Part shown: positions 41,981-53,582 of the stretch, piece by piece | Layout: the number at the start of each line of letters is the position of its first letter | Numbering within the stretch: position 1 is the stretch's first letter | Assembly: GCA_913043205.1 (NCBI GenBank) | Contig: CAJWLF010000002.1 | Span: forward strand, 45,206-109,205 | Length of the DNA: 64,000 bases | Source of the DNA: an uncultured Chloroflexota bacterium | Lineage (GTDB): Bacteria; Chloroflexota; UBA11872; VXNJ01 | Direction of reading: 5' to 3' | Program-made: the position numbers and the translations under genes | Notes under the pieces: generated by a model | Told to the model about the DNA's origin: nothing | Database searches by the model: none | The model's input: only the letters and a program-made list of their open reading frames with translations

Positions 41981-44086
41981 CTAAGACAATTCTGACAATT
42001 TATGCCAAAAATCTCTCAATCGATTTTTTATCCCTTCGTTTTCAGGAAGGCATAAGTCAGGATCAAATTTGAACAAAGCTATAGCCTGTCTTCTGGCTAG
42101 GACTAACGTGTCCACATCAGTGAGACTGGCTACACGTAATTCTGGAATACCACTCTGCTTCTGTCCTAAGATTTCACCTGGCCCACGAATGATCAAATCC
42201 TGTTCAGCAAGTTCGAATCCATCAGATATTTTTGTCATAGCTAGTAATCGCTCATTGCCATCAGCATCCTCAGAATCACTCATCAGCAAACAATAGCTTT
42301 GGTGTGAACCTCGCCCCACCCGACCACGAAATTGATGCAGTTGAGCTAGGCCAAACCTTTCAGCTCCTTCAATCATCATCACAGTCGCATTCGGAATATC
42401 CACTCCCACTTCGACTACAGATGTACTAACCAAGATCTTAATTCCACCATCGCGAAACGCCTTCATGACTTCAGATTTTTGAGCCGAACTCAATCGCCCA
42501 TGCAGCAAACCCATTCTCGTAGAGAATGATGAGAATTCATCCCTTTGCAGCCTGGCAAATTCGTCCTCTGCTGCCCTAACCTGTTGATTCTCTGATTCTT
42601 CAATCACCGGGAACACTATAAAAGCCTGCCTGCCTTGATTAACCTGATCACAAACAAAAGCATAGGCCTTGGATCGTCTATCGGAGCTCACTAATCCTGT
42701 TTTAACAGTCTGCCTGCCTTCCGGCATTTCTGTAAGCCTTGAAACATCCAGATCCCCGTACATTGTCAACGTCATAGTCCTAGGAATTGGAGTGGCCGTC
42801 ATAACCAACATATGAGGGTTGTAACCATTCCCTCGTAACCTAGCACGCTGCTGCACGCCAAATCTGTGCTGCTCATCGACCACAACCAAATTCAAGGAGT
42901 CAAACTTTGCTTCTTTGCTGATAAGAGCATGAGTCCCTACGACCACTTGCACTTCACCATCACTGACCCGTTTCCATGCCTCTCGCCTCTTAACCGATGT
43001 TAACGCCCCAGTTATCATTTCCAATCTAACGTCGTACCCGTGAAATAACTGGCACAACGTATTGAAGTGTTGTTCTGCAAGTAGCTGAGTCGGCACCATT
43101 ATTGCGACTTGAAAACCTGCTGAAGCCACTGCAAGAGATGCGCAGGCTGCAACCACTGTTTTACCTGACCCTACATCCCCTTGGAGCAATCGGTTCATCG
43201 CCATACTATTACCAAGATCGTTGAGGATCTCTGCTACAACTGTTTTTTGGTCCCCCGTAAGTCGAAACTCCAATGCTGTAACAAAACTTCTGATTTCGTC
43301 GCGTTTAACCATCACCGGTAACCCCGGCATAGACTCTCGCCATTCTCTACGCCGGGTCAAAACTCCGAGTTGCAACAAAAACAGCTCGTCAAAACTTAAT
43401 CGTTGCACCGCCTTTCTAAGTTCCCGATCAGAATCAGGAAAGTGGATCGTTTTCAAAGCCCGATTGATTTCAACCAATTTCCCATCAACAAGAACTTTGT
43501 CCGGCAAATGCTCTGGAATCATGTCAGCAAAATTGTTGACTACTTGTCCTATCCATATACGAAGCCATTTTTGGGAGAGGCGGCCAGTAGACCTATACAC
43601 AGGGACAATACGACCTGCATGAAACGATTTATTTAGATCAAATTCGAACTCGGGCGACTGGAGTTGCATTCCATCTCGCCCTCTTCTAATTCGACCAAAA
43701 AATGCGACATGCCGCTTGTTTCGCAATTGTTTTTCTCGATAGGGCTGATTGAACCAAATAGCACTTATGGAACCCGATTTGTCACGCAGTTCCGCAGTCG
43801 TCAGCTGGTATCGACCTCGAGTTGTTCGTACCGTGCGAAGTTTGACTACATCGGCAACAATATTGACCGAATCACCAGGCATAACTTCTGACACTGGGGT
43901 AATGGTATGCCGATCTAAATATTTCCTAGGGAAATGAAACAAAAAATCATTGCATGATCGGATGCCAAGCTTTGCAAGTAGTTTTGCATATTCTGCGCCT
44001 ACTCCATGCAATGCAGTGACTGGGCTTGACAGGGTTACTCCATCGGCCCTTAGATTAGATGCTGATTCGTGCCTTACGGGTACCAT
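41981..44086 (-). CDS. recG: ATP-dependent DNA helicase RecG
   Basis: NRLLQGDVGSGKTVVA Walker A, VVDEQHRFGVQQR, VMTATPIPRTM, RGRVGRGSHQSYCLL. Confidence 0.97.
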   Translation of the reverse strand: MVPVRHESASNLRADGVTLSSPVTALHGVGAEYAKLLAKLGIRSCNDFLFHFPRKYLDRHTITPVSEVMPGDSVNIVADVVKLRTVRTTRGRYQLTTAELRDKSGSISAIWFNQPYREKQLRNKRHVAFFGRIRRGRDGMQLQSPEFEFDLNKSFHAGRIVPVYRSTGRLSQKWLRIWIGQVVNNFADMIPEHLPDKVLVDGKLVEINRALKTIHFPDSDRELRKAVQRLSFDELFLLQLGVLTRRREWRESMPGLPVMVKRDEIRSFVTALEFRLTGDQKTVVAEILNDLGNSMAMNRLLQGDVGSGKTVVAACASLAVASAGFQVAIMVPTQLLAEQHFNTLCQLFHGYDVRLEMITGALTSVKRREAWKRVSDGEVQVVVGTHALISKEAKFDSLNLVVVDEQHRFGVQQRARLRGNGYNPHMLVMTATPIPRTMTLTMYGDLDVSRLTEMPEGRQTVKTGLVSSDRRSKAYAFVCDQVNQGRQAFIVFPVIEESENQQVRAAEDEFARLQRDEFSSFSTRMGLLHGRLSSAQKSEVMKAFRDGGIKILVSTSVVEVGVDIPNATVMMIEGAERFGLAQLHQFRGRVGRGSHQSYCLLMSDSEDADGNERLLAMTKISDGFELAEQDLIIRGPGEILGQKQSGIPELRVASLTDVDTLVLARRQAIALFKFDPDLCLPENEGIKNRLRDFWHKLSELS

Positions 44087-48896: not shown

Positions 48897-49832
48897 TCAC
48901 TCTCGAGTACCCCATGTAAGATCAAGTAATTTGGGATACCCACGACTGAATTCGGCGGCAGACTGCGCCTTCTTGCCTGCTACTTGCAATACGCTAATAG
49001 CTAATGCTTGCTGTCCGGTGGTGACAAATAGCTCATCCCCAGTAAATCGCACACTCCCAACAGGAGAGGCACAATTCTCATCCACCACCCTACAATCCAA
49101 TATCTTTACCGTCTTATCTCCGACGTAGGAATATAGGCCAGGCCAAGGCTGGTAGGCTCTCCATTTGTTGTATATATCAATAGCAGAATCTAGCCATGCA
49201 ACCTCCCCATCTTCCCTTCGTAACGTCCTAGTAAAGGTAGCGATAGAATTGTCTTGAGGAACCGGGGAAACACCTTCTCTTTCTATGTTGTCTAATGTAC
49301 GCACTAGTAGATCCGCACCCCGTCCAGACAATTCCCTCGACAATTCTGCGGTAGTCGTCGTGTTAGCAATACGAGTTGTGCAGAATCCGTAAATTGCACC
49401 GCCATCAAGACTTTGGTCCATTTTTAGAACAGTCACTCCAGTCTCAGAATCACCGGAGGCTATAGCTGTTTGTATAGGACTAGGTCCCCTATAGCGCGGA
49501 AGAATCGACGGATGGACATTGATTGCTCCATGCATAGCCGTAGAAAGCAGTCTTTCCTTGAGTATGACTCCATAAGCCACTACTACCACTACATCAGGCA
49601 CGCACGCGAAGATATCATCAACTGAGCTATTTACATTTATATCTACAGGCTGCATAACAGGTATGAAAAGCTCTTTTGCTTTTACAGCTACTGGCGGATC
49701 GGTCAGTATTCGGCCGCGACCCTGGGGCCTAGCTGCACGTGTCACAACGAGTTCGACCTGATGCGTGCTGTTGTGCAACGCCACCAATGATGGCAAAGCA
49801 AAACATGGAGTTCCTATAAAAACCACTTTCAT
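48897..49832 (-). CDS. fmt: Methionyl-tRNA formyltransferase
   Basis: KVVFIGTPCFALPSL, HGAINVHPSILPRYRGPSPIQTAIASGDSETGVTVLKMDQSLDGGAI; downstream of def. Confidence 0.95.
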   Translation of the reverse strand: MKVVFIGTPCFALPSLVALHNSTHQVELVVTRAARPQGRGRILTDPPVAVKAKELFIPVMQPVDINVNSSVDDIFACVPDVVVVVAYGVILKERLLSTAMHGAINVHPSILPRYRGPSPIQTAIASGDSETGVTVLKMDQSLDGGAIYGFCTTRIANTTTTAELSRELSGRGADLLVRTLDNIEREGVSPVPQDNSIATFTRTLRREDGEVAWLDSAIDIYNKWRAYQPWPGLYSYVGDKTVKILDCRVVDENCASPVGSVRFTGDELFVTTGQQALAISVLQVAGKKAQSAAEFSRGYPKLLDLTWGTRE

Positions 49833-50323
49833 ACAGACCGCTCGTATTCAACATCATCTGTACCTACATAACGGAGATCCGATCCCTCCACCAAACGGTC
49901 AGTGAACAACACTCCATTAGTATGGTCTATTTCATGTTGTAAAGCCCGAGCTAGGATACCCTCTGCCTTATGCTTTACCATTTTCCCGTTTTCGGCCATC
50001 GATTTAACGGTCACCCTACTAGCTCTTTCTACTTTCCCATAGTAGAGAGGAAGGCTCAAGCACCCCTCTTCATCAATTTCAGAACCATTTTCATGGACTA
50101 TTTCTGCGTTCACAAGAGTCATCAGCACATCATTCACACGAACAACTAGAACTTTCAACGGCCTTCCAATTTGCGGGGCTGCTAGCCCGATACCACCATA
50201 TGCGTCCATAGTCTCAATGAGATCTTCGATTAATTGGTAAATAGACTTATCGTACTTGCGAATCCGACTACATTTTTTTCGCAACATAGAGTGTTGAAAT
50301 GGAAGAATTTTGTGCCTGGTCAT
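49829..50323 (-). CDS. def: Peptide deformylase
   Basis: GGIGLAAPQIG, DEEGCLSLPL, LARALQHEIDHTNGVLFTDRL. Confidence 0.97.
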   Translation of the reverse strand: MTRHKILPFQHSMLRKKCSRIRKYDKSIYQLIEDLIETMDAYGGIGLAAPQIGRPLKVLVVRVNDVLMTLVNAEIVHENGSEIDEEGCLSLPLYYGKVERASRVTVKSMAENGKMVKHKAEGILARALQHEIDHTNGVLFTDRLVEGSDLRYVGTDDVEYERSV

Positions 50324-50332
50324 GACTATTTC

Positions 50333-52789
50333 TTATAGTAGGTCGACTGGATCAACATCGATTACCCATCCACGATGCGGAATTTGCAGCAGAGAGCATA
50401 CTTCTTCTTCATCGCCGCTGACTACCAAATGCCATCTGTAAAGTCGGCGTTCACGCGAAATAAAACACGGAGCTGGACCAAGTATCCGAAATCCTTTGTG
50501 AGACACCTTTGAGGCTGATTTTAAGTTCTCAGCAAGTCTATGAGCCTCTTCTCGAGCTTTCTCTCCGTCTTTGTTGCTGTACAGAAATCTCACCATACGA
50601 CTTGCAGGTGGAAAACCGTGAGCTATTCGGCTTTGAATTTCAGATCGGAAATATTTCAGGTAACTACCACTACTTGTAGCCAACATAACCGGATGCTCAG
50701 GAAACAAAGTTTGTATTACCATACGGCCATCAATCTGCCCTCCCAACACTTTCCTCCTCAATCTCATCAACGACTGAAAAACACGCTCAGGGGCAGTATA
50801 GTCGGGAAATCCTATACCTACATCGGCCTGAACTATACCCAATAGATCAGACGACAATTTAGATGCAAATCTAAAAATATAAGAGGTTCCGACAAGAATT
50901 TGGGTGGCACCTATTTCAAATGATTCTGCAACCGTAGAGGCAACTCCTGGAGCCACGTCACTATCTAAACGACCAATCCGTATGGTCGGAAATAGAGCCT
51001 TCAGTGAATTTACTACTGCCTCTGTTCCATATCCCCAAAACCTCAGTCTAGTACTACGGCAATCAGGACAATTCTTCGGTAGTGATTTCCGGTGATTACA
51101 AGTGTGACAAACTAAGCTTGAAGACCGATTGTGATGAACCAGATACATACTGCAATCAGGACATTTAAAAGAAAAACCGCAATCCCTGCAGACAGTAAGT
51201 GAGGCAGCCCCTCGCCTATTTACAAACAGTACTGCACGCCCCTTCTGCTGCATACAATCTTGCAAAGCGTAAAATAGTTCTTCTGACAATACACCTCCAT
51301 GCCCCATCAAAGGCGCAACTCTCATATCAACCACATCCACTACTCCAGCAGGACCATGCGCCCCCCATCCACGCCCCACTCTCATTCGTGCCCTTCGCAG
51401 CTGCCCTGCACTACTCATCAGAATAAGTCGATATCGCTCTTTCTCCACATTATCGAATGTCTCAATAGATGGAGTTTCCGATCCTAATATAACTGCAGCT
51501 CGTCTAATCCGAGCTGCACGGATACCAACTTGACGTAGATGAGCTCTAGCACCTCGCCTCTCTTTGTATGACCTATCCTCTTCGTGGTCGATGATCACTA
51601 ATGCTAGGCGAGTCATAGGTGCGTACACCGCATACCCGGGCCCTACAACCACATCTACTTCACCACTCCTTATAGATCTCCACACACCAAGCTTAGTAGA
51701 GACCGTACTAGAATTGGTCATCAAGACAACATACGCTGACACATTGCTTGCTATGGAATTAAACAATGATTCTGCCTCGTGTTCCGTAGGGGCGATTACC
51801 ATAACTTTTCCTCCCCCAGCTACAACTTTTTCAATGGCAGCTATATACACCGCTAATCGGTCGGCATCGGCTCCAAGCAACACGGATACAGCATGTCCAT
51901 CACGATCAAGAAATGCTTCGATGGAATTCCATGCATCCAGGTCTGGGCCTTGTAATACATCATCTTCCTTTGTCACCCTCTGTGGTAATCTAAATTGTCT
52001 ATTGACAGTCACTAGACCTCTGTCAATCAGAGCCATTAATGAGGATCGAGACGCCCGGCATTCTGCCAAGAGTTCTTTAACCGGAACATCAGTAGCACGT
52101 CTTGCAAGAACACGTAACAACTCCGCTTGTTTAGGAGCTCGTTTTAATTGGCAAAGATCATGTTTTAGTTGTCTCGGCGAAGACACCATACGCACAAATT
52201 GCGAGCCGATTTCCGGCATCTCTAATTCAGTCCAACGTCTAACCACCCCCGTACTAACCAAATGGGATAATGATTTTACGCAGCTCTTACCAATCGATTT
52301 TTCTAACGTTTCATATGCACTGGGGCCGAGAACGGTAAGCTTTTTCAGCGTTTTCGCCTCTACAGCCGATAGTTTTTCCTCATAATTTGAGGAAGGATCA
52401 GCCGCATAGTAGTGCTTTATGTACTTTGACAACCTGGGCGGCAACATAGTCTCAATAAGAAGCCCCAAAGGAGCACCGTAATTACGAGCCACCCATCGGG
52501 CCAATTCTAGTCTTCCAGGGTCGATAAGAATAGCATCAGATATTATGTCAAGCACGGGTTTTGTGGAATAGACTGGGCTAGAGTTTGCAACACTGAGTAC
52601 GACTCCGTGCAAAAGGCGATTACCAAATTCAACTGTAACTAGTTGTCCAGGATATATCCGATCCGTAAACTCGTTAGGAACCGAATAATGGAAGCTTCGA
52701 TCCCCTCGCACATTTGAAGCAGCGACCGCTATTTCGGCGTAGAGACCTGCATCTGTCGAACGATCAGTACGCCGATTGGAGTCCAACAT
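50333..52789 (-). CDS. priA: Primosomal protein N' PriA-like, degenerate helicase motifs
   Basis: Zn region CRDCGFSFKCPDCSMYLVHH...LVCHTCNHRKSLPKNCPDC, FWGYGTEAVVNSLKALFP, ILGPAPCFISRERRLYRWHLVV; Walker A/B and motif VI altered. Confidence 0.9.
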   Translation of the reverse strand: MLDSNRRTDRSTDAGLYAEIAVAASNVRGDRSFHYSVPNEFTDRIYPGQLVTVEFGNRLLHGVVLSVANSSPVYSTKPVLDIISDAILIDPGRLELARWVARNYGAPLGLLIETMLPPRLSKYIKHYYAADPSSNYEEKLSAVEAKTLKKLTVLGPSAYETLEKSIGKSCVKSLSHLVSTGVVRRWTELEMPEIGSQFVRMVSSPRQLKHDLCQLKRAPKQAELLRVLARRATDVPVKELLAECRASRSSLMALIDRGLVTVNRQFRLPQRVTKEDDVLQGPDLDAWNSIEAFLDRDGHAVSVLLGADADRLAVYIAAIEKVVAGGGKVMVIAPTEHEAESLFNSIASNVSAYVVLMTNSSTVSTKLGVWRSIRSGEVDVVVGPGYAVYAPMTRLALVIIDHEEDRSYKERRGARAHLRQVGIRAARIRRAAVILGSETPSIETFDNVEKERYRLILMSSAGQLRRARMRVGRGWGAHGPAGVVDVVDMRVAPLMGHGGVLSEELFYALQDCMQQKGRAVLFVNRRGAASLTVCRDCGFSFKCPDCSMYLVHHNRSSSLVCHTCNHRKSLPKNCPDCRSTRLRFWGYGTEAVVNSLKALFPTIRIGRLDSDVAPGVASTVAESFEIGATQILVGTSYIFRFASKLSSDLLGIVQADVGIGFPDYTAPERVFQSLMRLRRKVLGGQIDGRMVIQTLFPEHPVMLATSSGSYLKYFRSEIQSRIAHGFPPASRMVRFLYSNKDGEKAREEAHRLAENLKSASKVSHKGFRILGPAPCFISRERRLYRWHLVVSGDEEEVCSLLQIPHRGWVIDVDPVDLL

Positions 52790-52970: not shown

Positions 52971-53582
52971 TCAATATGAGTCTATAAGTCTCATTTTTCG
53001 TTCAGAATGTATTATTCCAACCACTTGTTCCACGGCACTATTTACGCAGCCTGTCTTGTTTTCCACCACATAGTCTGCTTGCTCACAGAACCTCAACTCT
53101 TCTTTAGCTGTAGACACTCGCAATTTCACTGCCATTTCCCCATCAGCGTCTCTAATATGAAGTCTTTCCAAGCCCGCGGCTATCGACTCAGGTCGCACGA
53201 AGATCACGACCGCACTTTCGCAAACACCCATTATTGCTCTAGCCCCTTGCACGTCCACTCTCAAAATGACATCTATTCCATTCAACAAGTGATCTGTGAT
53301 CTCACTTTTTGGAGTACCGTACCTGCGCCCGTATACGTTCGCCCACTCAACAAAGCGATTATCTCGCAGCCAGTCATCAAACCTTGTTGCCGACAAGAAG
53401 AAATGGTCCTCTCCATGAACCTCACCAGGCCGAGGTTCTCGTGTCACAGCAGTAACGGCTTTACGAATCCCTGGCAGAACCCGGATCACAGAATTCATAA
53501 TAGTATCTTTCCCGCTACCAGAAGTACCTGTAATAATAAACAAAATACCGGAACCCTCAGACATGGTTATTTCTCCAACCAC
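52971..53582 (-). CDS. gmk: Guanylate kinase
   Basis: IITGTSGSGKDTIMNSVI, AVTAVTREPRPGEVHGEDHFFLS, EWANVYGRRYGTPKSEI. Confidence 0.95.
   Translation of the reverse strand: MVGEITMSEGSGILFIITGTSGSGKDTIMNSVIRVLPGIRKAVTAVTREPRPGEVHGEDHFFLSATRFDDWLRDNRFVEWANVYGRRYGTPKSEITDHLLNGIDVILRVDVQGARAIMGVCESAVVIFVRPESIAAGLERLHIRDADGEMAVKLRVSTAKEELRFCEQADYVVENKTGCVNSAVEQVVGIIHSERKMRLIDSY

Follow-up and report, generated by a model that had tools for sequence, protein, structure and literature searches.

Canonical bacterial PriA uses ATP in helping stalled DNA replication to restart. The window, by which we mean the entire 64,000-nucleotide stretch of Chloroflexota DNA analyzed here, contains a priA gene encoding an 818-residue protein (50333..52789, minus strand) with degenerate helicase motifs, and this raises the question of what such a PriA could still do for its host. 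On the basis of its open reading frame, profile matches, domains, and structural relatives, we classify the protein as a PriA, and from its degenerate motifs as a pseudohelicase.

With respect to its identity, the protein scores 335 bits against the TIGR00595 profile (cut-off 230), passing the threshold for the PriA family, and 455 bits against the stricter PRK05580.1-3 equivalog profile, below that profile's cut-off of 813. The 3' DNA-binding domain (PF17764, 74 bits; residues 25-117; 52439..52717, minus strand) and the PriA C-terminal domain (PF18074, 48.5 bits; residues 729-814; 50348..50605, minus strand) both score above their cut-offs. Between them lies the cysteine-rich zinc region (residues 534-577; 51057..51190, minus strand), in which all eight cysteines are present and for which the Zn_ribbon_PriA profile gives 25.0 bits against a cut-off of 26. 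The first-pass annotation was therefore right that the Zn-binding cysteines and the C-terminal domain are kept. Likewise, the relatives of known structure recovered by sequence are PriA chains only, and the AlphaFold2 model (mean pLDDT 88.3, pTM 0.88) adopts a PriA fold whose nine top matches in the PDB are all PriA.

The gene also sits where a priA would be expected from conserved gene order, gmk-priA-def-fmt, with gmk upstream (52971..53582), def downstream (49829..50323), and fmt beyond it (48897..49832), all on the minus strand. A second intact priA elsewhere in the genome, which the first-pass annotation held would undo its reading, was not found in the assembly (1.87 Mb, 93.6% complete): a priA profile search recovered the window gene at 336 bits and otherwise five weak partial matches, spread over three long ORFs (1170, 704, and 691 residues). 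The 704-residue ORF is the RecG encoded in the window (41981..44086, minus strand), and the other two are, judging by their size, probably Mfd and UvrB.

We compared the helicase motifs of the protein to those of intact PriAs. At the site of the P-loop, residues 306-315 read GADADRLAVY (51845..51874, minus strand), as had been reported; the interval given for them in the first-pass annotation, 51851-51874, encodes only residues 306-313 (GADADRLA). Its other readings agree with the translation of the ORF: Walker B is the degenerate DHEE (residues 401-404; 51578..51589, minus strand) within IIDHEEDRSYK, the counterpart of GTQMxAKGHDFP is GTSYIFRFASKLSSD, and that of QVAGRAGR is SLMRLRRKVLG. The GSxTP motif had been described as kept; motif III is GSETP, retaining the threonine and proline but not the alanine. 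Walker A, Walker B, and motif VI would all be intact in an active PriA helicase; in the window PriA they are not, motif VI being lost entirely, and motif V has no lysine.

The same losses are found throughout the class to which the host belongs, a breadth that the first-pass annotation did not note. Among 32 PriA proteins from four families of this class (f1, f2, f4, and f5), none has the last glycine, the lysine, or the threonine of Walker A, the first glutamate of the Walker B DEEH, or the glutamine and first arginine of motif VI (QxxGRxGR), whereas intact PriAs conserve each of these residues at 97-100%. In motif V, GT is present in 32 of 32 proteins and the lysine in one. A displaced P-loop was considered and rejected: the Walker A-like pattern [AG]x4GK[ST] does not occur at any position in any of the 32 proteins, indicating that the P-loop has been lost, as first proposed, and not moved. 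In the AlphaFold2 model, only two residues separate the first strand of lobe 1 from its helix, compared to five in an intact Chloroflexota PriA (L101) modeled in the same way, so the modeled loop is shortened relative to this control. Since equivalent states occur in every class member, and since the window RecG has intact motifs (GDVGSGKT, DEQH, and QFRGRVGR), the loss cannot be attributed to sequencing error.

Other features of the protein have been retained. The class proteins keep most of NRRG, the TP of motif III, the proline of motif Ia, and the aspartate of Walker B, and the eight zinc cysteines are conserved with a single substitution in one of the 32 sequences. The persistence of both helicase lobes, together with NRRG, TP, GT, and the Walker B aspartate, would suit a protein that still binds or hydrolyzes ATP through an unconventional pocket and acts as a weak translocase. 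We regard this as very improbable, however, given that the P-loop, the Walker B glutamate, and motif VI have disappeared together and that the protein contains no alternative Walker A pattern.

A gene that has lost its motor might instead be decaying toward loss and encode a functionless protein, and priA has indeed disappeared from this very locus in another family of the class. Nevertheless, the open frames are full-length across all four PriA-bearing families, the zinc cysteines and C-terminal domain are conserved, and dN/dS for close pairs, calculated by the pairwise Nei-Gojobori method, which is noisy on short stretches, is about 0.05-0.46 in every main domain including lobe 1, with the lowest values in the zinc and C-terminal parts. 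Values this far below 1 in every domain indicate that the class PriA is a maintained, selected protein, and decay seems to us scarcely credible. That selection has kept the scaffold after the motor was lost supports the idea that the indispensable part of PriA lies in recognizing forks and recruiting partners, not in unwinding.

Sampling of 41 genomes of the class found PriA in families f1, f2, f4, and f5, motif-less every time. In the fifth family, f3, none of nine genomes yielded a PriA; even a broad PriA profile gave only partial matches there, inside long ORFs of other helicase-like proteins. At six f3 loci (L268-L273) the order gmk, def, fmt is kept and nothing between the first two genes matches priA; in L270 the gap between gmk and def is about 15 bp, and in L271 it holds an aminotransferase-like gene. 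A tree of gmk, def, and fmt did not fix the branching point of f3. The window genome has a DciA, as does every one of the 24 class genomes with completeness of at least 90% and contamination of no more than 5%; in f3, DciA was detected in two of the nine genomes, and the seven lacking it are all less than 90% complete. Since f3 does without PriA, the function of PriA may be dispensable or replaceable in this class. One could tentatively see replication restart in this class as having shifted from a PriA with a motor to a scaffold that has none and, in f3, where DciA was undetected in most genomes, to no PriA, although we consider this reading rather doubtful. If true, it would imply a PriA-independent route of helicase loading or restart. 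The occurrence of a priA-less family beside motor-less PriAs offers a natural series on what can replace PriA, and the complete absence of priA from f3 is the most interesting loose end of this analysis.

Outside the class, the motifs are intact in PriA from nearly all of the roughly 50 other Chloroflexota families sampled. The exceptions are another family, f6 (L052:2-1255 and L216), with a motif-less PriA in which motif II reads VVLDEHD or VLVIDEHD, and two Limnocylindrales-like PriAs (L097, and L238 of family f24), which have GRT for GKT and largely keep the other motifs; the same change in E. coli PriA, K230R, abolishes ATPase activity. No PriA match was found in the sampled genomes of four further families (f11, f40, f56, and f60), some of them 97-99% complete. 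Of 30 sampled Actinomycetota proteins, 10 are intact and 20 have no GKT at Walker A, in agreement with the earlier statement that actinobacterial PriAs can lack helicase motifs. Our literature search found no paper documenting that loss, so the point rests on the present sequences, and it likewise found no paper combining PriA, Chloroflexi, and replication restart.

Whether the motifs were lost separately in the two phyla, a question the first-pass annotation proposed to settle by phylogeny, was addressed with trees from which Deinococcota are absent. A tree of 109 rows, computed with the motif columns removed, places the class as one clade (SH-aLRT 96) within Chloroflexota (98) and the motif-less Actinomycetota as a separate clade (100) outside Chloroflexota, giving three changes of motif state when f6 is counted. 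A single origin of both groups, by common ancestry or transfer, would account for a 37-row tree in which they are joined at SH-aLRT 89, and a sister relation is not rejected on a 41-row set (AU p 0.37). Against such an origin, a tree constrained to keep Chloroflexota together scores higher on the 37-row set, Chloroflexota are supported at 99 in the 41-row tree with the actinobacterial clade again outside, DEEH occurs in some Actinomycetota but in no class member, and the profile of the window PriA is far nearer to PRK05580 than to PRK14873. We therefore consider a shared origin unlikely. Union of the class with f6 in one clade is not rejected either (AU p 0.59). The loss in the class is likely independent of the actinobacterial loss; the trees, in which long branches are in play, favor independence but fall short of proof.

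Taken together, sequence, structural model, and analogy with characterized PriAs suggest that the window PriA is very probably the only PriA of its genome, now a pseudohelicase that recognizes forks and recruits DnaB without hydrolyzing ATP. This matches the original proposal of a DNA-binding or scaffolding restart factor without ATPase activity, which is the best reading, the missing ATPase being predicted from sequence and model. With its 3' DNA-binding domain, its winged helix, both helicase lobes, the zinc region, and the C-terminal domain, the protein would still recognize stalled forks or D-loops and keep hold of the lagging-strand ssDNA. PriA would then recruit or position DnaB, which was detected in the host genome, at the fork, probably with the loader DciA; cooperation between PriA and DciA has been suggested but not demonstrated (PMC9825169). 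The protein itself would neither hydrolyze ATP nor unwind the lagging arm, a step that may be skipped or performed by another enzyme, for which the window RecG is a candidate as a source of fork remodeling. We infer all four elements of this scheme: the lack of ATPase activity, DNA binding, partner recruitment, and substitution by RecG. When the ATPase of E. coli PriA is inactivated, the protein can still support DnaB loading that depends on PriB and DnaT in vitro, and PriA-PriB restart in vivo does not require the ATPase/helicase activity of PriA (PMC10175261). A protein without its motor, in a class where a sister family has no PriA at all, could also have been repurposed outside replication restart, for instance as a scaffold for recombination or repair. 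Such a role is improbable, given that the DNA-binding, zinc, and C-terminal domains and the locus itself have been kept.

Compared to known PriA systems, the protein shares its domain order and fold with canonical PriA from E. coli and K. pneumoniae (PDB 4nl4, 6dgd, and 8fak), among which are its best sequence and structure matches, and differs in that motifs I, II, V, and VI are not intact. With the motif-less, PRK14873-type PriA of Actinomycetota it has in common a retained zinc region; unlike them, it scores 455 bits to PRK05580 and at best 148 to PRK14873, and no class member has the DEEH seen in some actinobacterial proteins. The closest experimental precedent, which the first-pass annotation does not mention, is the Deinococcus PriA pseudohelicase. 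No ATPase could be measured for D. radiodurans PriA and its unwinding activity is negligible, yet it binds ssDNA, fork DNA, and DnaB (PMC4504706), and in both proteins Walker A and Walker B are degenerate while the remainder is kept. The window PriA thus has the sequence hallmark of a pseudohelicase, degenerate ATPase motifs in an otherwise intact PriA. In Deinococcus-Thermus PriA, arginine replaces the Walker A lysine and motif II matches poorly (PMC4504706), whereas in the window PriA, which belongs to another phylum and is known here from sequence, the changes take in Walker A, Walker B, and motifs V and VI. The lineage is new but the kind of protein is known: this Chloroflexota case, which spans a class and is probably separate, joins the PriA pseudohelicases already described.
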